The notes under the pieces: model-generated
The model's input: the letters and a program-made list of their open reading frames with translations, nothing else
Told to the model about the DNA's origin: nothing
Databases searched by the model: none
Shown: piece by piece, positions 10,152-63,573 of the stretch
How the letters are laid out: the number at the start of each line of letters is the position of its first letter
Numbering within the stretch: position 1 is the first letter of the stretch
NCBI GenBank assembly: GCA_021817045.1
Contig: JAKAWG010000002.1
Location: 37,501 to 101,500 of the forward strand
Direction: 5' to 3'
DNA: 64,000 bases
DNA from: Acidobacteriota bacterium
GTDB taxonomy: Bacteria > Acidobacteriota > Terriglobia > UBA7540
Translations under genes and position numbers: made by a program

Positions 10152-10343
10152 GATGTTTTTTGAACCCCTAAGCCGAGGCCGGAATAGTTTTGGAAGTATA
10201 GGTTCGTTCAGGACTGGGAGTCAATGGGTAGGTGTAAGCGGGCACCGGTAGCCGCGGAACACTCCGTAACTCGGCGGGCTGATTCTTCTCGAATCGCTCA
10301 CCGCGCTCAGAGCGTGCCGCGGCTGCCGGCGGTTGATGGAGGA

Positions 10344-10634
10344 TTAGAAGTTGGCCTCAACGTTGTGCTGAGCGCACAGCAGCCTCGCCTTGAAGGTAGT
10401 GACGAAGGGATCGTCACTGATCTTCAACAGTGCGGAGCTGCCACGCGACTCCTTCACGATAGCTGGTGAAGCGCCAGGGATCAGAGCCTCCTTCGGAATC
10501 CTGTAGAGATCTCCGCTGCCCCGCTCAACGTACGCGCCGGGCTCACTGATCGACTCCCAGGTGGTTTCCAGTAGGATGGACCTCCGAGCTGGATGCACAG
10601 ATTGGGTTGACCCTTCTTCCGTCATTCTTGGCAT
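10344..10634 (-). CDS. Conserved-type small hypothetical protein
   Basis: A 96-residue soluble protein of unknown function. An excellent Shine-Dalgarno (AAGGAGGAG, minus strand, 10639-10647) precedes the ATG, which argues strongly that it is translated. It has no membrane segment, no cysteine cluster and no recognisable DNA-binding motif. The middle (EPGAYVERGSGDLYRIP) resembles small acidobacterial hypotheticals I have seen, but I can give no family name. It stands alone between GH31 and GH27 genes. Confidence 0.7.
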   Translation of the reverse strand: MPRMTEEGSTQSVHPARRSILLETTWESISEPGAYVERGSGDLYRIPKEALIPGASPAIVKESRGSSALLKISDDPFVTTFKARLLCAQHNVEANF

Positions 10635-53226: not shown

Positions 53227-54198
53227 GTGCCAATAACTACTGGTGTTGCGTTCGAAACCGTCGCCCGGTTTGCCGCGGACGTCCGCGCAGGCCTCTCTCA
53301 GCCGGAACAAAAGCAATTACCTTTCAAATATTTTTATGACGATGTTGGATCGGCTCTCTTTGAGGTGATCAGCGTCCTTCCAGAATACGGCCTAACGCGC
53401 GCTGACGAGCGGCTCCTGAAGAAATACGCTAACCGGATTGCCACAAGCATCCCGGCCTCCGTCGTTGTGGCCGAACTCGGAAGCGGTTCCGGAAAAAAAG
53501 CGCGCTGGCTTTTAGAAGCGCTTTCCCGGCTGGAGCCAGTTACCTACTGTCCAGTCGAACTCTCGTCCGCCGCCCTCGCCGTCTGCGCGCGAGAACTCAG
53601 TGACCTGGATTCAGTCCGCGTCATCGCTCTTGAGCGCGACTTCCTGGAAGGCCTCTCCGAGGTGGCCACGCGCCGCGAAGACGGACAACATTTGCTGGTG
53701 CTGTTTCTCGGAAGCAGCATCGGCAATTTTGAGTGTGAAAACGCGGTGAGCCTGCTCACAAGCATACGGGCGACGATGAAAGCTGGCGACGCGCTGCTTC
53801 TTGGGACCGACCTCGAAAAGGAGGTAGCGCGCATCATAGCAGCGTATGACGATCCCCTTGGCGTCACGGCTGCCTTCAACCTGAACCTGCTGGCCCGCAT
53901 TAACCGCGAACTCGACGCCGATTTCAATCTTCAGAATTTCAAACATCATGTGAAGTTCAATCGTCAAACGCGTGATGTCGAGATGTACCTTCAATCCACC
54001 TGCAGACAAACGGTGAGAATCAACAAGGCCGGCTTTTCCACTGTGCTCTCAGCAGGTGAGAGCATTTTGACCGAGCGCAGCCACAAATATTCCCTCGACG
54101 AAGTGTCGGCAATCATCCAGGAGGGTGGCTTCCGGTGCCAGGAGCAGTTTGTAGACCGCGAATGGCCGTTCGCGGAAAGCCTGATGTTTGCGGAATGA
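53227..54198 (+). CDS. egtD: Histidine N-alpha-methyltransferase EgtD
   Basis: Trimethylates histidine to hercynine. LPFKYFYDDVGSALFE is the family opening. VAELGSGSGKKARWLLEAL binds SAM, LVLFLGSSIGNFE and LLGTDLEKE follow, and AFNLNLLARINRELDADF lines the substrate site. The 323-residue length is normal. The start is GTG, with GGAGGAG four bases upstream, 22 bases after egtB. Together the two supply both main steps of ergothioneine synthesis; the final C-S lyase may be unlinked. Confidence 0.93.
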   Translation: MPITTGVAFETVARFAADVRAGLSQPEQKQLPFKYFYDDVGSALFEVISVLPEYGLTRADERLLKKYANRIATSIPASVVVAELGSGSGKKARWLLEALSRLEPVTYCPVELSSAALAVCARELSDLDSVRVIALERDFLEGLSEVATRREDGQHLLVLFLGSSIGNFECENAVSLLTSIRATMKAGDALLLGTDLEKEVARIIAAYDDPLGVTAAFNLNLLARINRELDADFNLQNFKHHVKFNRQTRDVEMYLQSTCRQTVRINKAGFSTVLSAGESILTERSHKYSLDEVSAIIQEGGFRCQEQFVDREWPFAESLMFAE

Positions 54199-54205
54199 GC
54201 TTACC

Positions 54206-55000
54206 ATGACCAACTCGGCCGCCGAGGGGCCCGCCGTCGGGTTCCAAGGAGTCCACTTTCGCGTCAACGGCCGCTCTCTGATAACCGGTCTTAGCATGGA
54301 AATCCATCGCGGCGAAACGATGGTCCTGTTGGGCCGCAGCGGTTCCGGCAAGACGACCGTTGTGAAGCTGATCAACGGATTGCTCCATCCCTCCGAAGGC
54401 GCGGTGATGGTGGAAGATCGCACCACATCGGCCTGGGACCCCGTCCAATTGCGGCGGCGCACGGGCTACGTCATCCAGGAGGGAGGACTGTTCCCGCATT
54501 TCACCGTTGAGCGCAATGTGGGGCTGATCCCGCGCCTGGAAGGATGGCCGAAGGAGCGGATAAAGGCCCGAGTTGACGAAGTGCTTTCCATGGTCGGCCT
54601 CGACCCGAACGAATTTCGCGGACGCTACCCGCACGAGCTCTCCGGAGGTCAGCGCCAGTTGGTGGGTGTGGCGCGCGCGCTGGCCGGCGATCCTCCCCTC
54701 TTGCTGATGGATGAGCCCTTTGGATCTCTTGATCCGATCACGCGCGACGAGATTCAGCACGAATTTCTTGGGCTGCTCCGAAGGGTCCGCAAAACGACCA
54801 TCCTTGTAACCCACGATGTGCGCGAGGCTCTGTTGCTTTCCACTCGAATCGCCTTGCTCGATCTCGGAAAACTCGTAGGCGTCTATTCCCCGCAGGGTTT
54901 CCTTCATTCCAATGACACGGTGGCAAGGCAATACGCCGGCGCGCTCCGTACCGGCAAAGAAAAAATGCGCCTGTCTGGTGATTCCAATGAGCCTTCTTGA
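54206..55000 (+). CDS. ABC importer ATPase, osmoprotectant/EgtV type
   Basis: A 264-residue ATPase: GRSGSGKTT (Walker A), LSGGQRQLVGVARAL, LLLMDEPFGSLDP and VTHDVREAL. It resembles the OpuCA/ProV family but has no C-terminal CBS pair. The ATG is 7 bases after egtD stops, so it reads as part of the egt operon. The EgtV ATPases of ergothioneine importers belong to this family. Glycine betaine or choline remains the alternative substrate. Confidence 0.88.
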   Translation: MTNSAAEGPAVGFQGVHFRVNGRSLITGLSMEIHRGETMVLLGRSGSGKTTVVKLINGLLHPSEGAVMVEDRTTSAWDPVQLRRRTGYVIQEGGLFPHFTVERNVGLIPRLEGWPKERIKARVDEVLSMVGLDPNEFRGRYPHELSGGQRQLVGVARALAGDPPLLLMDEPFGSLDPITRDEIQHEFLGLLRRVRKTTILVTHDVREALLLSTRIALLDLGKLVGVYSPQGFLHSNDTVARQYAGALRTGKEKMRLSGDSNEPS

Positions 55001-55625
55001 ATATTTTCTGCAGCACCACAACGAAATCCTGGAGCTTACGATGGAGCATCTCTGGCTGGTCGGCATGTCCATGCTGCTGGCGGTAGCCATTGGCGTGCCG
55101 CTGGGCATTTTGTTGTCCCGGCGGCCAGGTCTGAGCAAGCCGATTTTAGGCGTCGCCAACATTGTCGAGACAATTCCCAGTCTTGCGCTGTTCGGCTTCC
55201 TTCTTCCCGCGCCGTGGCTGGGCGCGCGCGCCAGTCGGCTGGCGGTGACGGCGTTGGCCCTTTACGCCTTGCTTCCCATCATACGCAACACCTTCACGGG
55301 AATCGCGAGCGTCGATCCGGCGGTACGGACGGCAGCGCTCGGTATGGGCATGACGGGACGGCAGTTGCTTTTTCAAGTCGAGCTTCCGCTCGCGTCAGGC
55401 GTGATTCTTGCGGGGATTCGTGTGGCCACCGTGCTGACCGTGGGAATTGCGACCATCGCGGCGGCTATCGGAGCAGGTGGCCTGGGCGAATTCATCTTTC
55501 GCGGCCTCGCGATGGTTGATAATCAGGTGATCCTGGCGGGAGCTATTCCTGCCGCGTTCATGGCGCTCTTCGCGGACCTAGCCCTCGGCGCTCTCGAGCG
55601 GCGGCTCCAATTCCCTCGCTCATGA
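54987..55625 (+). CDS. ABC importer permease, osmoprotectant/EgtU type
   Basis: A 212-residue permease with five to six membrane helices and the EAA-type loop (AALGMGMTGRQLLFQVELPLA). GVANIVETIPSLALFGFLLP is typical of OpuCB-like permeases. It overlaps the ATPase gene by 14 bases and the binding-protein gene by four, so all three are coupled. In the known EgtU the permease and binding domain are fused; here they are separate. Confidence 0.88.
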   Translation: MSLLEYFLQHHNEILELTMEHLWLVGMSMLLAVAIGVPLGILLSRRPGLSKPILGVANIVETIPSLALFGFLLPAPWLGARASRLAVTALALYALLPIIRNTFTGIASVDPAVRTAALGMGMTGRQLLFQVELPLASGVILAGIRVATVLTVGIATIAAAIGAGGLGEFIFRGLAMVDNQVILAGAIPAAFMALFADLALGALERRLQFPRS

Positions 55626-56506
55626 AACCCGCCGCCGCCGTTCTTGTCTGCCTCGTGACCGTTGCCTGTTCGGTGCGACCGCACGACACGATCGTGATCG
55701 GATCGAAGAACTTCACCGAACAAGTGATCCTTGCAGAACTGCTGGCCCAGCGCATCGAAGATACAACTCCGCTCAAGGTCGAGCGGAGATTTTATCTTGG
55801 CGGGACTTATGTCTGCCAGCAGTCACTTCTGGCTGGGCGCATCGACGCCTACGTCGAATACACGGGAACGGCGCTGACGGCGATTCTCAAGGAGCGGCCC
55901 CGAGGGAGCGCACAAAACGTCTACAATCGCGTGAAAAAAGAGTATGCTGCGCGATTTGGCCTAGCCGTGATGAAGCCGTTGGGATTCAACAACAGCTTTG
56001 CGGTCATCATTCGTGGCAGTACCGCCCGGCGACTCCACCTGCACACCATCTCTCAAGCTGCGAAATTCACCCCTCACTGGCGCGCTGCTTTTGGATATGA
56101 GTTTATGGACCGCCCCGACGGATACAAGGGACTGGCCCGGACCTACCGTTTGAAATTCACCAGCCCGCCCCTCCCGATGGACCTCGGCTTAATCTATCGC
56201 GCGTTGATTTCCAAACAGGTTGACCTGATCGTGGGAAACACAACCGACGGCCAGATACAGGCCTATCACCTCGTCGTCTTACGAGACGACCGGCACTACT
56301 TTCCGCCCTACGAGGCAGTTTCAATTGTCCGCGAGCAGATTCTCCGGCGTTATCCCGTGTTGAAAAACGCTATCGACGGCTTGACCGGAAGCATTTCCGA
56401 TAGCGAGATGAGGGAGATGAATTACGACGTCGTCGGCCTGCACGAGGACTCCGCACGCGTGGCTCGCGAGTTCCTGCGGTCCAAGCATCTCAACGTGCGG
56501 CCGTAA
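55622..56506 (+). CDS. Substrate-binding lipoprotein, OpuAC/EgtU-domain type
   Basis: A 294-residue binding protein. A lipoprotein-type signal ends at VTVAC. IVIGSKNFTEQVILAELLAQ and YVEYTGTALTAIL are OpuAC/YehZ family blocks, and LIVGNTTDGQIQAYHLVVL is the second-lobe hinge region. It would deliver a quaternary ammonium compound to the permease. In this context ergothioneine or hercynine, both trimethylammonium betaines, are reasonable candidates. Start ATG overlaps the permease stop. Confidence 0.88.
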   Translation: MKPAAAVLVCLVTVACSVRPHDTIVIGSKNFTEQVILAELLAQRIEDTTPLKVERRFYLGGTYVCQQSLLAGRIDAYVEYTGTALTAILKERPRGSAQNVYNRVKKEYAARFGLAVMKPLGFNNSFAVIIRGSTARRLHLHTISQAAKFTPHWRAAFGYEFMDRPDGYKGLARTYRLKFTSPPLPMDLGLIYRALISKQVDLIVGNTTDGQIQAYHLVVLRDDRHYFPPYEAVSIVREQILRRYPVLKNAIDGLTGSISDSEMREMNYDVVGLHEDSARVAREFLRSKHLNVRP

Positions 56507-56552: not shown

Positions 56553-56582
56553 TTGACACAGTTGCAGACGAGGTGCTAATAA
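56553..56582 (+). promoter_or_regulatory. Promoter before the M-box
   Basis: A perfect TTGACA (56553-56558) and a weak TAATAA (56577-56582) 18 bases on. The start would fall near 56589, about 45 bases before the riboswitch. Confidence 0.45.
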
Positions 56583-56632
56583 AAGTAGTTGTTGCACGAT
56601 TGCGACGTTGAATCGTGCATTAACTTAAACGG

Positions 56633-56800
56633 ATCCTCGGTAGGCGAGGCGTCCGCGCGACATATAAGCCACTGCCCAGCCAGCATCCAAAGATACCGGC
56701 AGATGGGTAGAACAGGCGCTCCCGGATTAAGGGTTTGCCTAAGGTGGCTGATCTCGTTAGGTGGGATCTCACGGCGCGCGGTGCTGAAGCTTGGGCGAGT
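56633..56800 (+). promoter_or_regulatory. M-box magnesium riboswitch (ykoK leader)
   Basis: The strand carries the conserved M-box blocks in order: GGTAGGCGAGGCGTCC, GCCACTGCCCAGCCAGC, TCCAAAGATACCGGCAGA, TGGGTAGAACAGG, TTAAGG, GGTGGCTGAT, GTTAGGTGGGATC and GGTGCTGAAGCTTGGGCGAG. This follows the Bacillus mgtE leader almost block by block. CTCG near 56635 and CGAG near 56797 close P1. M-boxes sense Mg2+ and usually terminate transcription when it is plentiful. Confidence 0.92.
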
Positions 56801-56858
56801 GGGGATATGCGGTGGTGCACAGGCCGCAACGAAGCCTTTTGTAGTCGGTCCTCAGTAT

Positions 56859-56893
56859 TAGCCCTTTCTCCGTCACCGGGGAGGGGCTATTTT
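56859..56893 (+). terminator. Intrinsic terminator, expression platform of the M-box
   Basis: TAGCCC-TTTCTCC, a six-base loop, GGGGAG-GGGCTA, then TTTT. It lies about 60 bases after the riboswitch, where high Mg2+ would favour it. Confidence 0.8.
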
Positions 56894-57154
56894 AGTTTCC
56901 CTCCTCTGGCGTCACGCCTCACCTCAGAAAGGTATATGACAGACAGCGACGACAAGCCTGCGGATAGTAGCGCGCACTGTACAGCGTGTTAGAGCCAGTT
57001 GTGACCAGGAAGCCTTGATTTTCGTTCCTGCCTGATCACACCGTTTCTCTTCCCGCCTTCGCGCTTCAATCCCGACAAATAATACGCGGCTTATGCGGCG
57101 GTAGCTTGCGCCTCGCACGTGCAAGTTGCCGTGGGCACCGCAAAGAGGCCTGCG

Positions 57155-57268
57155 ATGCCAGAGTTCTGTGCGAACTGCAAGCTGTGGCGCGCTTATGCAG
57201 GGGCGAACGGCGGTATCCGCCTTTGGCGGCCGATTGAACGCACCTCACGCCGGAGATGGACGGAGTGA
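57155..57268 (+). CDS. Possible 37-residue leader peptide
   Basis: An open frame with AGAGG six bases before the ATG, beginning MPEFCANCKLW, with a CxxC pair and an Arg-rich end. It stops three bases before the transporter GTG, so its translation could influence that start. There is no homology argument, and it may be chance; the rest of the 380-base leader shows GC hairpins only. Confidence 0.25.
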   Translation: MPEFCANCKLWRAYAGANGGIRLWRPIERTSRRRWTE

Positions 57269-57271
57269 ATT

Positions 57272-58546
57272 GTGAACTTCCTCGCTAAACTGTTTTACAA
57301 GTACAAGAAATTTCTCAAGGTTGCCAGGCTATACCTGCTGATTGCCGGTCCCGGCATCATTGTCATGATGGCCGACAACGATGCTGGTGGTATTACCACC
57401 TACACTGTCACAGGAGCTCAGTACAAGTTCTACTTGATCTGGTTCCTCATATTGCTCGGGCCGGTTGCCTACTTCGTCCAGGAGATGACCGTGCGCCTGG
57501 GCTCAGTAACCAAGCGCGGCCACGCCGAGGCCATCTTCCACTCCTTCGGAGCATTCTGGGGCTGGCTCTCTCTCCTGGACCTCGTCCTCGTAGACTGGCT
57601 GACCATGATCACGGAGTTCGTCGGCATGACGGCGGCGCTGAGCATCTTCGGCGTACCGCGCCTCGTGACGGTGATTTTGAGCTGGATTGTGATGGGAGCT
57701 ATGGTCATCCAGGGACGCTACTGGACGTGGGAGAAGATTGCGCTCGTATTCTGTGCGCTCAATCTGATTTACATCCCCGCCGCTTTTATGATCAATCCTC
57801 CCGTTCACGAAGTCCTGCGTGGCAGCTTCATACCGCAGCTTCCACCAGGCGGATTCACCAACGCGCTGTTTTTCCTGCTGATGGCCAACATCGGCACCAC
57901 GATCGCCCCGTGGATGGTTTTCTTTCAGCAAAGCGCGGTGGTGGACAAGGGCATGCAGGAAAAGGACATGTTGTGGGGGCAGATCGACACTGCCGTAGGC
58001 TCGTTTCTGACGGTTGTGGTGGCCGCTGGTTGCGTGATCTTGACCGGAACGCTGATCCCGGGCCAGAACATCACCGACGCCGCCACTGCCGCCATTCGCT
58101 TCATGGGGATCAACAAGTACGTGGGTGCGTTTCTCGCAATCGGGCTATTCGACGCTGGATTCCTTGGCGCGATCTGCATCTCCCTCGCCAGCTCGTGGGC
58201 CTTCGGAGAGGTATTCGGGTGGGCTCATTCTTTGAACAAAAAGGTCAAGGAGGCGCCATGGTTCTACGCGTACTACTTCTTTGACCTGATGCTGGCAGGA
58301 ACCGTTGTGCTGATTCCGCGCGCACCCTTGGTCCTTATCACTTTGTTCGTCCAGGTCGTCGCGGTCACGTTGCTGCCCGCGGCCTTGGTCTTCCTCATCC
58401 TGCTGCTTAACGACAGCGAGACCATGGGTGAGTACAAGAACACGCGATTTCAGAACTTCGCAAATATTTCAATCGTCGTAATGATCATCGTAGTCTCTAC
58501 CGTCTACAGCATCAGTGCGCTTTTCCCCAATATTCTTGGGGGCTAA
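57272..58546 (+). CDS. NRAMP-related transporter, probable Mg2+ type
   Basis: A 424-residue protein with about eleven helices. The first helix begins GPGIIVMMADNDAGG, aligning with NRAMP GPGxxxxxxxxDPGN, so the DPGN motif is DAGG. In helix 6, ATVMPHN of Mn/Fe NRAMPs is replaced by TTIAPWM: the soft methionine ligand is Ala. NRAMP-related Mg transporters (NRMT) of SLC11 are known to lack this methionine. An M-box upstream and an MgtE-like sensor downstream point the same way, so Mg2+ uptake is my best call. GTG start with GGAG six bases upstream. Confidence 0.85.
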   Translation: MNFLAKLFYKYKKFLKVARLYLLIAGPGIIVMMADNDAGGITTYTVTGAQYKFYLIWFLILLGPVAYFVQEMTVRLGSVTKRGHAEAIFHSFGAFWGWLSLLDLVLVDWLTMITEFVGMTAALSIFGVPRLVTVILSWIVMGAMVIQGRYWTWEKIALVFCALNLIYIPAAFMINPPVHEVLRGSFIPQLPPGGFTNALFFLLMANIGTTIAPWMVFFQQSAVVDKGMQEKDMLWGQIDTAVGSFLTVVVAAGCVILTGTLIPGQNITDAATAAIRFMGINKYVGAFLAIGLFDAGFLGAICISLASSWAFGEVFGWAHSLNKKVKEAPWFYAYYFFDLMLAGTVVLIPRAPLVLITLFVQVVAVTLLPAALVFLILLLNDSETMGEYKNTRFQNFANISIVVMIIVVSTVYSISALFPNILGG

Positions 58547-58568
58547 AAAATCGTATGGAGGAACAACC

Positions 58569-58748
58569 ATGATCTTCAACTTCTTTCGGAACACAAGCGC
58601 GGCATTCAAGGCAATCAACCGGAAGTATTCAACGCCGCGCATCAAGATGACGCCGTTGGCCAGGCTGTCTCTCGGAGTACTGCGGTTCTATCTTCTCTTC
58701 CTGGTTGGGATCCTGGTCTACAAGTTTGTCATGACGCTTCACAAGTAG
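58569..58748 (+). CDS. Small single-pass membrane protein (59 aa)
   Basis: A 59-residue protein with a basic N-terminal half (FKAINRKYSTPRIKMT) and one membrane helix (about 33-54, LGVLRFYLLFLVGILVYKF). TGGAGG precedes ATG 58569 by seven bases. It sits between the transporter and the MgtE-like gene with short gaps (22 and 8 bases), so it is part of the operon. It may be a subunit or regulator of the transporter. No family is recognised. Confidence 0.8.
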   Translation: MIFNFFRNTSAAFKAINRKYSTPRIKMTPLARLSLGVLRFYLLFLVGILVYKFVMTLHK

Positions 58749-58756
58749 GAGGGCCT

Positions 58757-60034
58757 ATGAACACAACAGTCCAAGCGAAGAATTCAATCGAGAGGACCTT
58801 CTTCCTGACGGAACTTTTGGGCGCGCGGGTCTATGCCAACGGGCGGAAGCTCGGAAAGCTTAAGGACCTGGTCGCCATCGACCAGGGGAAATTGGCTGAA
58901 GTCACGCATATCCAGATCGGTCGCCCGTTTGGTGAACCCGACTTGCTCGTTCCGCGGCAGAGGGTCCAATCGTTCGACCCGCGGGAAATCATAATCAATG
59001 TCGAGGATGTCAAGACCTACGTGCGAGAGCTTGCGCCCGGAGAGGTGCTGCTCAGAGATTATCTTCTGGACAAAAAGGTGCTCGACATGGAGGGTCGCGA
59101 GGTTGAAGTGGTCTATGACATTCGACTGGCCTTGACCGGCGATAAGGTCTACGTCAGCGATGTCGATATCAGCCGTCACGGTTTGCTCCGCCGCTTGGGC
59201 CTGGCAGCCCTCGCCAACCACTTGTCCAAAAAGAATGACGACGCCGAAAAGAATATCGTCCCTTGGTCTTATGTCCAGCCATTGCCGTCGCAGTTGGGAG
59301 CGCTTAAAGGGAACATAAAGCTCAGCGTTCTGAGGGAAAGACTCGCCGAGATTCATCCCGTCGATCTGGCTGACATTCTGGAAGAACTCGACAGTGCTCA
59401 GAGGGCGACCATCTTGGAAGGCATGGATATCGAACATGCGTCCGATACCCTGGAGGAGATTGAGCCGGCCGTACAACGCGACATCGTGCGCTCTCTCAAG
59501 AAAGACCGCGTAGCCGAACTGATCCGCGAAATGACGCCCGGGCAAGCGGCGGATGTCCTCTCGGTGCTTCCCGCCGAGGACAAGAAAGCCATCTTGACAC
59601 TGCTCGATCCATCCCAGGTGGAAAAGATCGAGCGGATCTTGAAGAAGCAAGACATCAGCATCATCAGCTTCGCCACTACTCGTCTCTTCAAGTTTCCGCC
59701 CGATATCAGTGTCGAGCAAGCTCAGGTGAAATGCCGCGAAATGGCTAAGCATATTGACGTCGTCATGTACCTCTACATCGTGAATTCAAGGGACGAGCTC
59801 TTGGGAGTAGCGGATATCCAGCGCCTTTTCATGGCCAATGACGATGAGTTGCTCCGCGCTCTGATGGTCGAAATCGTCGTCGCCCTAAGCCCTGACAGCA
59901 CGCTCAAAGAGGCGGTGGACTTGTTCAACCGATACCACTTCGATGCGCTGCCCGTGGTCGGGATGAACAATGTTCTATTGGGGGCCGTGCCTTACCGTGA
60001 CGTGATGAACGTCAAGGATCGGGCTTTCGACTAA
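58757..60034 (+). CDS. Soluble PRC-barrel/MgtE-N/CBS protein
   Basis: A 425-residue cytoplasmic protein. Residues about 14-90 are a PRC-barrel (LLGARVYANGRKLGKLKDLV), with a second PRC-like unit to about 160. Residues 190-300 form the MgtE_N superhelix (HPVDLADILEELDSAQR, TPGQAADVLSVLPAEDK). A CBS pair follows (about 300-425; NSRDELLGVADIQRLF, HFDALPVVGMNNVLLG). In MgtE these N and CBS domains bind Mg2+ and gate the channel, but here the channel domain is absent. It probably senses Mg2+ and acts on the NRAMP-like transporter or on the small proteins. Confidence 0.88.
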   Translation: MNTTVQAKNSIERTFFLTELLGARVYANGRKLGKLKDLVAIDQGKLAEVTHIQIGRPFGEPDLLVPRQRVQSFDPREIIINVEDVKTYVRELAPGEVLLRDYLLDKKVLDMEGREVEVVYDIRLALTGDKVYVSDVDISRHGLLRRLGLAALANHLSKKNDDAEKNIVPWSYVQPLPSQLGALKGNIKLSVLRERLAEIHPVDLADILEELDSAQRATILEGMDIEHASDTLEEIEPAVQRDIVRSLKKDRVAELIREMTPGQAADVLSVLPAEDKKAILTLLDPSQVEKIERILKKQDISIISFATTRLFKFPPDISVEQAQVKCREMAKHIDVVMYLYIVNSRDELLGVADIQRLFMANDDELLRALMVEIVVALSPDSTLKEAVDLFNRYHFDALPVVGMNNVLLGAVPYRDVMNVKDRAFD

Positions 60035-60083
60035 GAGTATCGAGGATTTGGTCGCGCTCGCATTCGCGTGTCGGGAGATGACT

Positions 60084-60233
60084 ATGGAAGTCTCCCTGAA
60101 GATCATTCGCGTCGCGTTTGCAGCTTTTTACGTTGCTGGATTGCTGCTGTTTCTGCTAGCGCCAACTATAAGCAAGCGCTTCAGACCAAGATGGGGAGAT
60201 AAGGATCGTTTCCCATCGAGCCGTAAGAAATGA
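60084..60233 (+). CDS. Small single-pass membrane protein (49 aa)
   Basis: MEVSLKIIRVAFAAFYVAGL opens a 49-residue protein with one membrane helix (about 8-30) and a strongly basic C-terminus (RFRPRWGDKDRF...RKK). GGGAG seven bases before ATG 60084 supports it; an ATG two codons earlier overlaps the Shine-Dalgarno. It comes 49 bases after the MgtE-like gene and is probably cotranscribed. Function unknown. Confidence 0.7.
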   Translation: MEVSLKIIRVAFAAFYVAGLLLFLLAPTISKRFRPRWGDKDRFPSSRKK

Positions 60234-60735
60234 CGGGCTCGAACGGCGAAGAGATGGAAGTCGGGCGGGAGCCCGAATCGCTTGGCACGCGATCGTCACC
60301 GGCGAGGTTTTGACCCCGGCAAAGAACATGCTGGTTATGCGGTGGAAGTTTGCGGCCCTGACGTGGGCGCCGGACAGCAGCACTGTGAAACCCGGAGGCT
60401 GATTTGTGTGCAACGTCGTGGCACAGAGGTCTCGCCCGCGGAAAACACGGTCAGGATGACCATGCCACGAAACGATGGAAATTGAACCATGTGAGAGGAG
60501 CCACCAACAATGAACCGGCGAACGAGAGAAAGAACCGTGAAAGGGGAATACGACCATGCTGACCATGAAATGGACGATGGACAACGAGGGCCGCCTGGTG
60601 GCCAGGTGGGTCGAAGCGCAGGAGATTCCCCGCACAGTGTTTTCTGCCGAGACGGCGAATCCGGCTATGGGTCACCCGGAGGAGAAGGAGTTGGGCCACT
60701 CATCCTCGCGTAATATATCGCGGGTATGTTTAGCC
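60234..60735. other. Region between the Mg module and the porin
   Basis: About 500 bases. A frame from ATG 60556, with AAAGGGGA before it, reads KWTMDNEGRLVARWVEAQEI and runs without a stop into the porin gene. It could be a small separate protein whose stop was lost, or an odd extension. CGCGTAATATATCGCG near 60708 is a palindrome near the porin start. Confidence 0.35.
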
Positions 60736-62061
60736 ATGCCCACGCGGGTCAGACGATGGCTTAGGGGTGCGTGGATTGGAGCACTTATGTTGCTCGCCTG
60801 CCTGCCCCTTTGCGCTCAAAATGGCGGCCAGGACCCGCCAGGCTCAGCCCACCGATTCTTGGACCTGCACTTCCAGTCCACTCTCATTGGGCAGGGCGTT
60901 TTGCCTTTTCCCGCCCTATATTCGGGCATCAACAGCTTGGACCCTAATGGTCAGGTGAAGGACACATTTTCGTTTGACGCTACCGGTGACGTGCGTCCAT
61001 GGCGGGGAGGCGAGTTCTATGTAGACGGTCTGTCGTGGCAAGGCTATGGCCTCAGCAAAACCACCGGGCTTGCAGCTTTCCCCAACGGCGAAGCCTACCG
61101 GGTGGGCAAAACCTTTCCGGACGCCGTCGTTGCGCGCGCCTACTTCCGCCAGACGCTCTATTTCGGCGGGGATCCTGGAAAGGGCCACAACGCCGCGGGC
61201 GGACGGGGGCGGCGCTTGATCTTTACGGTGGGCCATTTCGCAGCCACTGATATCTTTGACCAGAACGCTTACGCGAACGATCCGAGAACGCAGTTCATGA
61301 ACTGGGCGTTTGTCAACAATCTGGCGTGGGACTACCCGGCAAACTCCCTCGGTCTCACAAATGGCGTAGCGGCGGAACTCGACTTGGGTCTATGGGCGGC
61401 ACGGGCGGGCATCTTCCAAGTCTCGCAGGTCGCTAACGGCATAAGGATGGACTGGAATCTAGCACACGCGTGGTCCGTCGCCGGGGAACTCGAGCGCCAG
61501 TATTCGTTTGGAGGGCATTCCGGCGCCGTGAGGCTGATCGCGTGGAAGGAACACGCGCACATGGGAAGCTATCAGGAATCGCTGAGCGATCCGCAGAACA
61601 TCGCACTTAACGGCCAGCTCCAATATCGTTCGAAATACGGCTTCGGAATCAACGCGGAGCAGGAAATCCGGAAAGATCTCGGAGCATTTATGCGCCTGGG
61701 CTGGAGCAACGGCAGGACTCAGGCTTGGGAGTTTACGGACGTGGATCGCACTGCCTCGCTGGGCCTCAGCTTAAAAGGTGACGCGTGGCGGCGGCCCGGA
61801 GATACGGTGGGCGTCGCTGGCGTGGTTGACGGCATCAGCGCCGTGCATCGGCAGTTCCTCGCTAATGGTGGGCTTGGAATCACGGTCGGCGACGGTGCTC
61901 TCGACTACCGCTCCGAACGGGTTGGCGAAGCTTACTACAACTGGAAAATGACAAAGCACTTTTGGTTTACCTTCGACTATCAACTTGCCATCAACCCCGC
62001 TTATAATCACGCCCGCGGACCGGCTAACATTTTTGCGACGCGGCTGCACTGGGAGTTCTGA
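60736..62061 (+). CDS. OprB-type carbohydrate porin
   Basis: A 441-residue outer-membrane protein with a signal peptide (WIGALMLLACLPLCAQN), many alternating hydrophobic strands and a terminal aromatic residue (LHWEF), as expected for a beta barrel. FTVGHFAATDIFDQNAYAND and INAEQEIRKDLGAFMRLGWS are OprB family blocks. Such porins pass sugars; in this neighbourhood passage of metal ions is also conceivable. I start at ATG 60736 because the signal peptide begins there; the frame is open upstream. Confidence 0.85.
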   Translation: MPTRVRRWLRGAWIGALMLLACLPLCAQNGGQDPPGSAHRFLDLHFQSTLIGQGVLPFPALYSGINSLDPNGQVKDTFSFDATGDVRPWRGGEFYVDGLSWQGYGLSKTTGLAAFPNGEAYRVGKTFPDAVVARAYFRQTLYFGGDPGKGHNAAGGRGRRLIFTVGHFAATDIFDQNAYANDPRTQFMNWAFVNNLAWDYPANSLGLTNGVAAELDLGLWAARAGIFQVSQVANGIRMDWNLAHAWSVAGELERQYSFGGHSGAVRLIAWKEHAHMGSYQESLSDPQNIALNGQLQYRSKYGFGINAEQEIRKDLGAFMRLGWSNGRTQAWEFTDVDRTASLGLSLKGDAWRRPGDTVGVAGVVDGISAVHRQFLANGGLGITVGDGALDYRSERVGEAYYNWKMTKHFWFTFDYQLAINPAYNHARGPANIFATRLHWEF

Positions 62062-62092: not shown

Positions 62093-62767
62093 TCAAACTG
62101 CTTTCGGCGCCTTCAATGCTGCTGAAACCCACACTCTTCTTGCCGCGGTTTCACTCAAGCTTGCAGACCCGCTGGAAAGGTGCAAGCTAATGGTCCCATC
62201 GTAATTGCGGCTGATAATTTTGGCTCGCACACCGGGGCGAATTCCCAGTTTGTCGAAATATTCCAGCAGTTGCCTGTCGCGCTCGTGCATGCTCTCAATC
62301 CTGAGAGCTACGCCTGGGGGCGACTCCCACAACGGGTGCAGCCCAAGCCTCCGCCGCTCGGCGGCGCTCTCATTGACCTGGTTGCCGTAAGGACAGGGGC
62401 CCTTTCGCCCGAGCTTTTCAATGAGCTTCCGTTCCAGATCCTCCGAAACCGAGTGCTCCAAGCGCTCCGCTTCCTGGTGTACCTTGTACCACTCGACTCC
62501 CAGCATCTCGTGCAACATTCTCTCAATCAAGTGGTGGCGCAGGCGCAATTTGTCGGAAATGGCCCGGCCCGCCGGGGTGAGCGAGATCCCACCCTTCCGG
62601 TCCACATACACCAATTTATCTCTGCGCAACCTGCGGAGAGCAAGGGTGACGGCGGGGGGGGTTACGCCAAGCCATCGGCCGACGGTTGCGGCAATCACCG
62701 GCTCCTCTTCCGCACCGGCTTCCGCGATGGCCTTCAGGTAATCCTCTTTTGACACCGTCAGTTCCAT
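62093..62767 (-). CDS. MntR-like DtxR-family metalloregulator
   Basis: A 224-residue regulator: winged helix (SKEDYLKAIAE, VTPPAVTLALRRLRRD), a metal/dimer domain (RLRHHLIERMLHEMLGVEW, VHQEAERLEHSVSEDL) and a C-terminal FeoA/SH3-like domain (LGIRPGVRAKIISRNYDG). Where DtxR has a Cys in HxxxCxxEH, this protein has Glu, as in MntR, and an Asp sits in the N-terminal KEDY, so Mn2+ is the likelier co-repressor. It is transcribed divergently from the CDF-like gene and may control the transporters here. Confidence 0.87.
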   Translation of the reverse strand: MELTVSKEDYLKAIAEAGAEEEPVIAATVGRWLGVTPPAVTLALRRLRRDKLVYVDRKGGISLTPAGRAISDKLRLRHHLIERMLHEMLGVEWYKVHQEAERLEHSVSEDLERKLIEKLGRKGPCPYGNQVNESAAERRRLGLHPLWESPPGVALRIESMHERDRQLLEYFDKLGIRPGVRAKIISRNYDGTISLHLSSGSASLSETAARRVWVSAALKAPKAV

Positions 62768-62897
62768 GATTCCTCAGTCCGCCTTCAAATGACCTTACTC
62801 CCAAGCTCTCCAAATCATCGCAGCAATCATAAACGGAGGCAACACTCAAAGAAATAGGAAACGAAAGATAGGTCTTGATATAGAGTAACGTTTTAGT

Positions 62898-62910
62898 GTT
62901 AACTATAGTT
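62898..62910. promoter_or_regulatory. Palindromic site between mntR-like and CDF-like genes
   Basis: GTTAAC (62898-62903) overlaps a perfect ten-base palindrome AACTATAGTT (62901-62910). AACxATAG resembles half of an MntR box. The surrounding DNA is A+T rich and contains a TTGATA, but no well-spaced -10. Confidence 0.4.
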
Positions 62911-62940
62911 TCTTTTTATCTCATAGTATCAGTACATTCA

Positions 62941-63573
62941 ATGGAACGTCGAACGAGTAGCATCGCAATGTCTGAGGATTCACAGGTCCTTCGGCGTATT
63001 ATGCGTCTTCAAATCCTGACGATCGCATGGATGACTGTTGAGGCCATCGTTGGACTTGGAGCCGCTTGGACTGCTCACAGTCCGGCGCTTCTGGGTTTTG
63101 GTGGCGACAGTGTTGCCGAGCTCCTCTCAGCGATCATCGTCTTCTGGCGATTTCGTGTTGGCTCGGATTCCGAGCAATCCGAGAGGCTAGCGGCCCGTGT
63201 GACCGGAGCTTTGCTCTTCGCGGTTGCAGGTCTTGTCATCATTAGCTCGGGACTGGCTCTTCTTGGCGATCGTAGACCTCAGCCGAGCCTCATTGGAATC
63301 GGCTTGTTGATCGTGGCATCCATCGGGATGCCCTGGCTGGCGGCTCAGAAACGCAGATTGGGCGGGCAGCTCGCAAGCGCGGCGTTGACGGCCGATGCGG
63401 CCGAATCATCGGTTTGTGGATACTTGTCCGTTATCGCGTTGGCTGGGCTGTTGATAAACGCAATCGTTCACGCGCCCTGGGCAGATCCAATATCAGCCTT
63501 GGCCCTCCTACCGCACATTGTGAGGGAAGGGTGGGAGGCGGTGAGCGCTTCGCGAAGTTGCTGTGAGGTGTGA
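62941..63573 (+). CDS. CDF-like cation efflux protein, membrane domain only
   Basis: About 210 residues with six predicted helices. GFGGDSVAELLSAIIVFWRF and ALTADAAESSVCGYLS occupy the places of the CDF metal-site helices 2 and 5. In each the expected HxxxD or DxxxD pattern is altered, keeping DSVAE and ADAAE acidic residues. No C-terminal cytoplasmic domain follows. It may be a divergent efflux protein or a member that has changed function. Starts at 62968 or upstream GTG 62896 are possible. It faces the MntR-like gene, so Mn-responsive expression is plausible. Confidence 0.7.
   Translation: MERRTSSIAMSEDSQVLRRIMRLQILTIAWMTVEAIVGLGAAWTAHSPALLGFGGDSVAELLSAIIVFWRFRVGSDSEQSERLAARVTGALLFAVAGLVIISSGLALLGDRRPQPSLIGIGLLIVASIGMPWLAAQKRRLGGQLASAALTADAAESSVCGYLSVIALAGLLINAIVHAPWADPISALALLPHIVREGWEAVSASRSCCEV

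Follow-up and report, generated by a model that had tools for sequence, protein, structure and literature searches.

A candidate Mg2+-import operon from an Acidobacteriota genome combining an NRAMP-related carrier, a conserved single-helix protein, and a detached MgtE-type sensor

The balance of evidence leans modestly toward a Mg2+-starvation import operon in the window (the 64,000-nucleotide stretch of an Acidobacteriota contig, JAKAWG010000002.1, that was analysed here), which would comprise an NRMT-type carrier, a small subunit, a damping sensor, and a porin, and would have undergone a cassette swap. More broadly, we regard it as an even call whether one NRAMP-related clade, found in many phyla and some archaea, consists of carriers with an obligate one-helix subunit and an MgtE-derived sensor acting in trans, accompanied in some Gram-negatives by an M-box-controlled OprB porin. 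The core of the finding is already known, since Shin et al. 2014 (PMC4072509) described M-box, nrmT, and MgtE-like fragment and proposed the feedback; the remark in an earlier note on this DNA that it knew of no described system of such make-up therefore fails for the core. The new element relative to that literature is the small protein, which we did not find described there. The earlier note also lacked two points, namely the conservation of the 59-residue gene across multiple phyla and the OprB porin in the module.

A cmscan search of the whole window against Rfam returned a single match, the M-box (ykoK leader) Mg2+ riboswitch aptamer RF00380 (56629–56810, forward strand). The full-length covariance score of 112.2 bits (gathering score 44; E = 3e-24), with 169 of 169 model positions covered, bears out the M-box that had been recognised from the letters alone. 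Its own intrinsic terminator was likewise present (56859–56899, forward strand) as a 12-pair stem with a T-rich tail (stem 56859–56889, then TTTTAGTTT), giving −19.6 kcal/mol when folded alone, and the RNA between terminator and carrier gave no second riboswitch or other family at E values up to 1. At high Mg2+, M-boxes allow a terminator to form and transcription is off, while at low Mg2+ transcription is on. The window M-box was 88.5% identical to that ahead of an NRMT-small protein pair in an own-family locus (L182) and only 63–66% identical to M-boxes from other phyla. M-boxes were present in 29 of 40 genomes of the window's order and 54 of 77 Geobacterales genomes, which overturned the idea of an M-box restricted to the window's genome (1 of 37 genomes). 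They lie directly 5′ of the module in the window and in loci from Aminicenantes, the Geobacter group, and the window's own family; for most cassette copies from other phyla, none was found at the search sensitivity used. In Geobacterales (L229–L268), M-boxes precede sensor–carrier pairs without the small protein, carrier–small protein–sensor cassettes, and long genes (~900 aa) that may encode P-type ATPases.

The carrier, 59-residue protein, and sensor genes lie on one strand with gaps of 8–22 nt, and the tight same-strand spacing previously noted is borne out for these three. The carrier (57272–58546, forward strand; 424 aa, GTG start) is an NRAMP-related transporter of the NRMT/NrmT type, and its PF01566 match (222 bits) confirms the NRAMP-like gene of the earlier reading. 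The best solved relative was EleNRMT from Eggerthella lenta (7QIA; E = 6e-60), which, against a model of the relative L116, gave Z 41.7 and rmsd 2.7 Å over 395 residues at 32% identity. By alignment, EleNRMT site residues D55, G58, T224, A227, and Q379 correspond to D37, G40, T209, A212, and Q361 of the window carrier, i.e., 5/5 ion-site residues are the same, and the site motifs read DAGG and GTTIAPW. The structure of EleNRMT has been solved; it carries Mg2+ without protons, and its Thr224-to-Ala mutant showed no detectable Mg2+ transport (PMC8806188). Mg2+ is the likeliest substrate of the window carrier because these residues are kept, the Thr224 equivalent above all, and the ion-site residues together with the M-box point to Mg2+ import across the inner membrane. 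Scanning an alignment of the carrier subclade against 84,980 species genomes yielded >573 relatives, of which the best 80 loci were analysed; the record titles of these 80 covered about 15 phyla including archaea, mostly as metagenome-assembled genomes. Groups among the relatives included Chlorobiaceae, Geobacter, Omnitrophota, Elusimicrobia, Nitrospirae, Chloroflexi, Patescibacteria, Planctomycetota, and Methanomicrobiales archaea.

The sensor gene (58757–60034, forward strand; 425 aa) encodes a soluble protein. Domain matches and an AF2 model (pLDDT 78) gave a PRC barrel, a second PRC-like part, an MgtE_N superhelix, and a CBS pair, after which the chain ends, with no membrane part and no channel domain, in agreement with the channel-less PRC/MgtE_N/CBS protein proposed earlier. 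The best Foldseek matches of the model were MgtE cytoplasmic domains, and TIGR00400 aligned only over 19–251 of 450, below its cut-off. With the MgtE cytoplasmic domain (2YVY), the sensor shares MgtE_N, the CBS pair, and part of the Mg2+-site acids, but it differs in having no channel, no plug helix, and extra N-terminal PRC domains. Among the six MgtE Mg2+-site acids compared (E59, D91, D95, D226, D247, and D250; PMC5882242), three are kept: sensor D230, D266, and D415 correspond to E59, D95, and D247 and are retained as Asp in 24–27 of 27 relatives, whereas the acids at D91, D226, and D250 are absent. Mg2+ sensing by this protein is plausible, and the loss of these three acids and of the plug helix means that the gating geometry of MgtE is not transferable unchanged. 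Such sensors are associated with NRMT carriers of two types. The strong M-box, the five retained EleNRMT residues, and the carrier–small protein–sensor order in 75/75 loci with enough DNA (best 80 of >573 relatives) support the earlier proposal that the sensor part of MgtE has been detached and paired with an NRAMP-type transporter in a Mg2+ module. The module offers a clean place to examine how a detached MgtE sensor may act on an unrelated carrier.

Parts of this arrangement were found in the NrmT operons described by Shin et al. 2014 (PMC4072509). In that study, M-boxes occur ahead of NRAMP-related genes, Mg2+ transport was shown for the C. acetobutylicum member, and an M-box-controlled nrmT adjoins an MgtE-like fragment for which cytoplasmic feedback was proposed. 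Clostridium acetobutylicum Ca_c0685 has an M-box, as in the window, and both Ca_c0685 and Acidobacterium capsulatum Acp2976/Acp2977 comprise an NRAMP-related carrier with an adjoining MgtE-like fragment, as here. The available text names no small membrane protein in these operons, whereas the window has one, and the sensor of the A. capsulatum pair lies upstream of its carrier, as in the clade without the small protein and opposite to the window order. The same text reports that A. capsulatum NrmT fully rescued a Mn2+ defect but rescued a Mg2+ defect only at millimolar Mg2+, and that co-expression of the MgtE-like fragment, in a single test of this pair, did not improve rescue.

The 59-residue single-helix membrane protein (58569–58748, forward strand) belongs to a conserved unnamed family. 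A relative lies directly 3′ of the carrier on the same strand in 80/80 loci (best 80 of >573; worst E = 5e-7). Relative pairs of the small gene gave dN/dS of about 0.1–0.4, with synonymous change roughly 2.5 to 13 times higher, which indicates that the protein is translated and under purifying selection; a chance or overlapping ORF was ruled out by conservation and selection. The 59-residue membrane protein of the earlier note is thus strongly supported. In 41 aligned members, the length ranged from 55 to 71 residues, and N17, Y20, P23, L35, L38, R39, Y41, L42, K52, and F53 were invariant or nearly so. The positively charged N-terminal part leads into one hydrophobic stretch, and the N-side was more positive in 40/41 members, which suggests an N-inside orientation. 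None of the 41 members matched Pfam or NCBIfam, the family profile found nothing among PDB sequences, and a literature search lying mostly outside subscription journals found no small protein paired with NRAMP carriers. To our knowledge, SLC11/NRAMP-type carriers are treated as single-polypeptide machines. If the small partner is as constant as the carrier, the whole branch would be a two-subunit transporter, the small protein would have to enter its expression, structure, and transport assays, and the subunit would so far have been missed owing to its size.

The occurrence of the small protein followed that of the carrier subclade. Among 77 Geobacterales genomes, its occurrence was confined to six, and precisely these six hold the subclade; the others mostly contained only other NRAMP-type carriers, and none had the small protein. 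In 396 genomes of the window's phylum, the credible matches were again the carrier-subclade set, and two further weak matches fell inside long unrelated frames. A maximum-likelihood tree of 80 carriers, including EleNRMT and the sensor-then-carrier type, placed all small-protein-bearing carriers on one side of one branch (support 98/92). EleNRMT and the sensor-then-carrier type fell on the side without the small protein, in which respect EleNRMT differs from the window carrier, and one locus (L185) lies in the small-protein clade, yet has no recognisable small ORF. Three gene orders were observed: carrier–small protein–sensor, as in the window and most phyla; carrier–sensor–small protein, with shortened small-protein copies, in part of the window's phylum; and carrier–small protein without a sensor, in groups at 42–45% identity. 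In a large part of the phylum (L035–L048), the small protein is cut to about 37 residues and placed behind the sensor.

Because some relatives have the carrier and small protein without a sensor, the partner of the small protein is probably the carrier. The small protein also accompanies altered-site carriers beside MntR (L054 and the second copy in the window's genome) and is thus tied to the carrier clade, not to Mg2+ as such. A different reading, in which it serves the sensor by anchoring this soluble protein to the membrane, gains from the position of the small gene, which in the window and 75/75 long loci is flanked by carrier and sensor and often lies only a few bases from where the sensor gene starts. 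We consider it distinctly unlikely, as the groups at 42–45% identity have carrier and small protein with no sensor adjoining, and the sensor–carrier pairs of the other NrmT type do without the small protein. As a carrier subunit, the protein would have its charged N-terminal part inside, P-R-I-x-M-T at the membrane face, and its helix packed on the carrier. In a fused L116 model (carrier, linker, and small protein; pLDDT 71), 12-helix NRAMP alignments ran into the last helix, from which came the idea that the small protein stands in for NRAMP helix 12; this is inconclusive, as the read-through fusion forces the geometry, just one model in five was good, and the pattern of charges favours the opposite direction. 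MgtS and MntS are small one-helix proteins that act on transporters. AcrZ, which pairs with AcrB (PMC7267776), resembles the 59-residue protein in being small, single-helix, and transporter-paired. No sequence relation of AcrZ, MgtS, or MntS to the family is known, and what sets the family apart from all three is its constant presence, across phyla, in the operon of an SLC11/NRAMP-type carrier.

Downstream of the sensor, a 49-residue hydrophobic open frame (60084–60233, forward strand) was not supported as a gene or part of the module. It had no relative in 80 related loci (best 80 of >573), its matches in 40 genomes of the window's order did not exceed chance level, and the closest relative (L102) leaves no room for it. 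The second small membrane protein of the earlier note was accordingly dropped as a subunit; of the four-gene order it envisaged, carrier–small protein–sensor stood in 75/75 long loci and the 49-residue frame in 0/80.

The next gene encodes an OprB-family outer-membrane porin (60556–62061, forward strand; PF04966), with a start probably near 60736. An own-family genome (G421, locus L187) has a tight array of M-box (111 bits), carrier, small protein, and OprB without a sensor, and the gene neighbours are the same in L186 and L183. The OprB gene of Geobacteraceae L178 is preceded by a separate M-box, and that of L235 is situated 76 bases 3′ of the sensor. These loci tie OprB to the Mg2+ regulon in two lineages, and in the window's family the porin probably belongs to the Mg2+ module, which points to a Mg2+-regulated outer-membrane porin. 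In L035, L036, and L037, OprB precedes the carrier. The window leader (56595–57116) was 82% identical to own-family L182 and the window OprB 74% identical to L186, whereas the carrier was 85% identical to that of L102 and only 42–46% identical to own-family copies; L102 itself has no M-box, and its OprB is distant (31%). A foreign carrier–small protein–sensor cassette appears to have replaced a resident carrier–small protein pair between the old M-box leader and the porin, this being the simplest reading of an own-family-like leader and OprB around an L102-like carrier. A natural carrier swap behind one M-box would indirectly point to a shared function of the two carriers.

Beyond the porin, a DtxR/MntR-type regulator (62093–62767, reverse strand) is followed by a 225-residue membrane protein (62896–63573, forward strand) that looks like a cation-efflux type and, at the window end, by another NRAMP-related carrier belonging to the same clade as the first (from 63626, with homology from 63908). 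The whole gene of this second carrier is in L033:9127–10644; it has the altered motifs DAPS and GATVTPW, and a weak small-protein relative lies behind it. In L054, MntR is directly upstream of an altered-site carrier. The second carrier and MntR probably form a Mn2+ system beside the Mg2+ one.

In the import operon as we read it, high cellular Mg2+ would let the M-box terminator form and switch the operon off, and low Mg2+ would allow transcription. The NRMT-type carrier would then take Mg2+ across the inner membrane; the small protein would serve it as a dedicated auxiliary subunit of one helix, presumably bound to the carrier and needed for its stability or activity. The detached MgtE sensor would bind cytoplasmic Mg2+ and damp the carrier, as Shin et al. 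(PMC4072509) proposed earlier, and the OprB porin may pass Mg2+ across the outer membrane. Counting for this reading are the M-box (112 bits), the site residues, the 75/75 and 80/80 orders, the 6/77 Geobacterales genomes, the tree support (98/92), the occurrence of the small protein without the sensor, the 40/41 charge bias, dN below dS, and the OprB arrays. Counting against it are the Mn2+ preference of the A. capsulatum pair, which is of the other NrmT type, and the lack of effect of its fragment (PMC4072509); the absence of D91, D226, D250, and the plug helix from the sensor; the lack of a detected M-box at most other-phylum cassettes; and the small protein beside altered-site carriers near MntR (L054 and the own second copy). 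The main doubt lies in the Mn2+ precedent and in the latter carriers.

In a rival reading, what the carrier chiefly imports is Mn2+ or a different transition metal, with the M-box as only a secondary control and the sensor reading that metal. The A. capsulatum NrmT with its adjoining MgtE-like gene favoured Mn2+ rescue (PMC4072509), Mn2+ is carried by EleNRMT as well (PMC8806188), some 30 bp beyond the porin there is an MntR-like gene on the opposite strand, and one plasmid copy of the cassette adjoins an ArsR gene and a heavy-metal P-type ATPase. We nevertheless judge a mainly Mn2+-importing carrier unlikely, given that an M-box immediately precedes the module in the window and in loci from Aminicenantes, the Geobacter group, and the window's own family, and that 5/5 Mg2+-site residues are retained; moreover, the MntR gene more likely belongs to the second NRMT (DAPS and GATVTPW versus DAGG and GTTIAPW). 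The role of the sensor-like protein may also differ from the damping one preferred here, in that it could stabilise the carrier, activate it, or buffer metal for it rather than inhibit it. Half of the compared MgtE Mg2+-site acids and the plug helix are lost, and the single published co-expression had no effect (PMC4072509), but D230, D266, and D415 (MgtE E59, D95, and D247) are kept in 24–27 of 27 sequences and such sensors are very strongly associated with two types of NRMT carrier, so that we find a non-inhibitory role rather unlikely.

Just upstream of the module, on the same strand, is a glycine-betaine/choline-type ABC transporter (ATPase, permease, and OpuAC binding protein; 54188–56506). 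The carrier–small protein–sensor cassette was also observed on conjugative plasmids of Citrobacter freundii (pPSV, L269:9001–11713) and Serratia marcescens (L270), where the carrier is 67.5% identical and the neighbours of the cassette are an ArsR regulator and a P-type ATPase for heavy metals. At the DNA level, no close match to this Citrobacter cassette was found in complete genomes of E. coli. The small gene of L269 (about 10283–10453) falls in a gap of the gene table.
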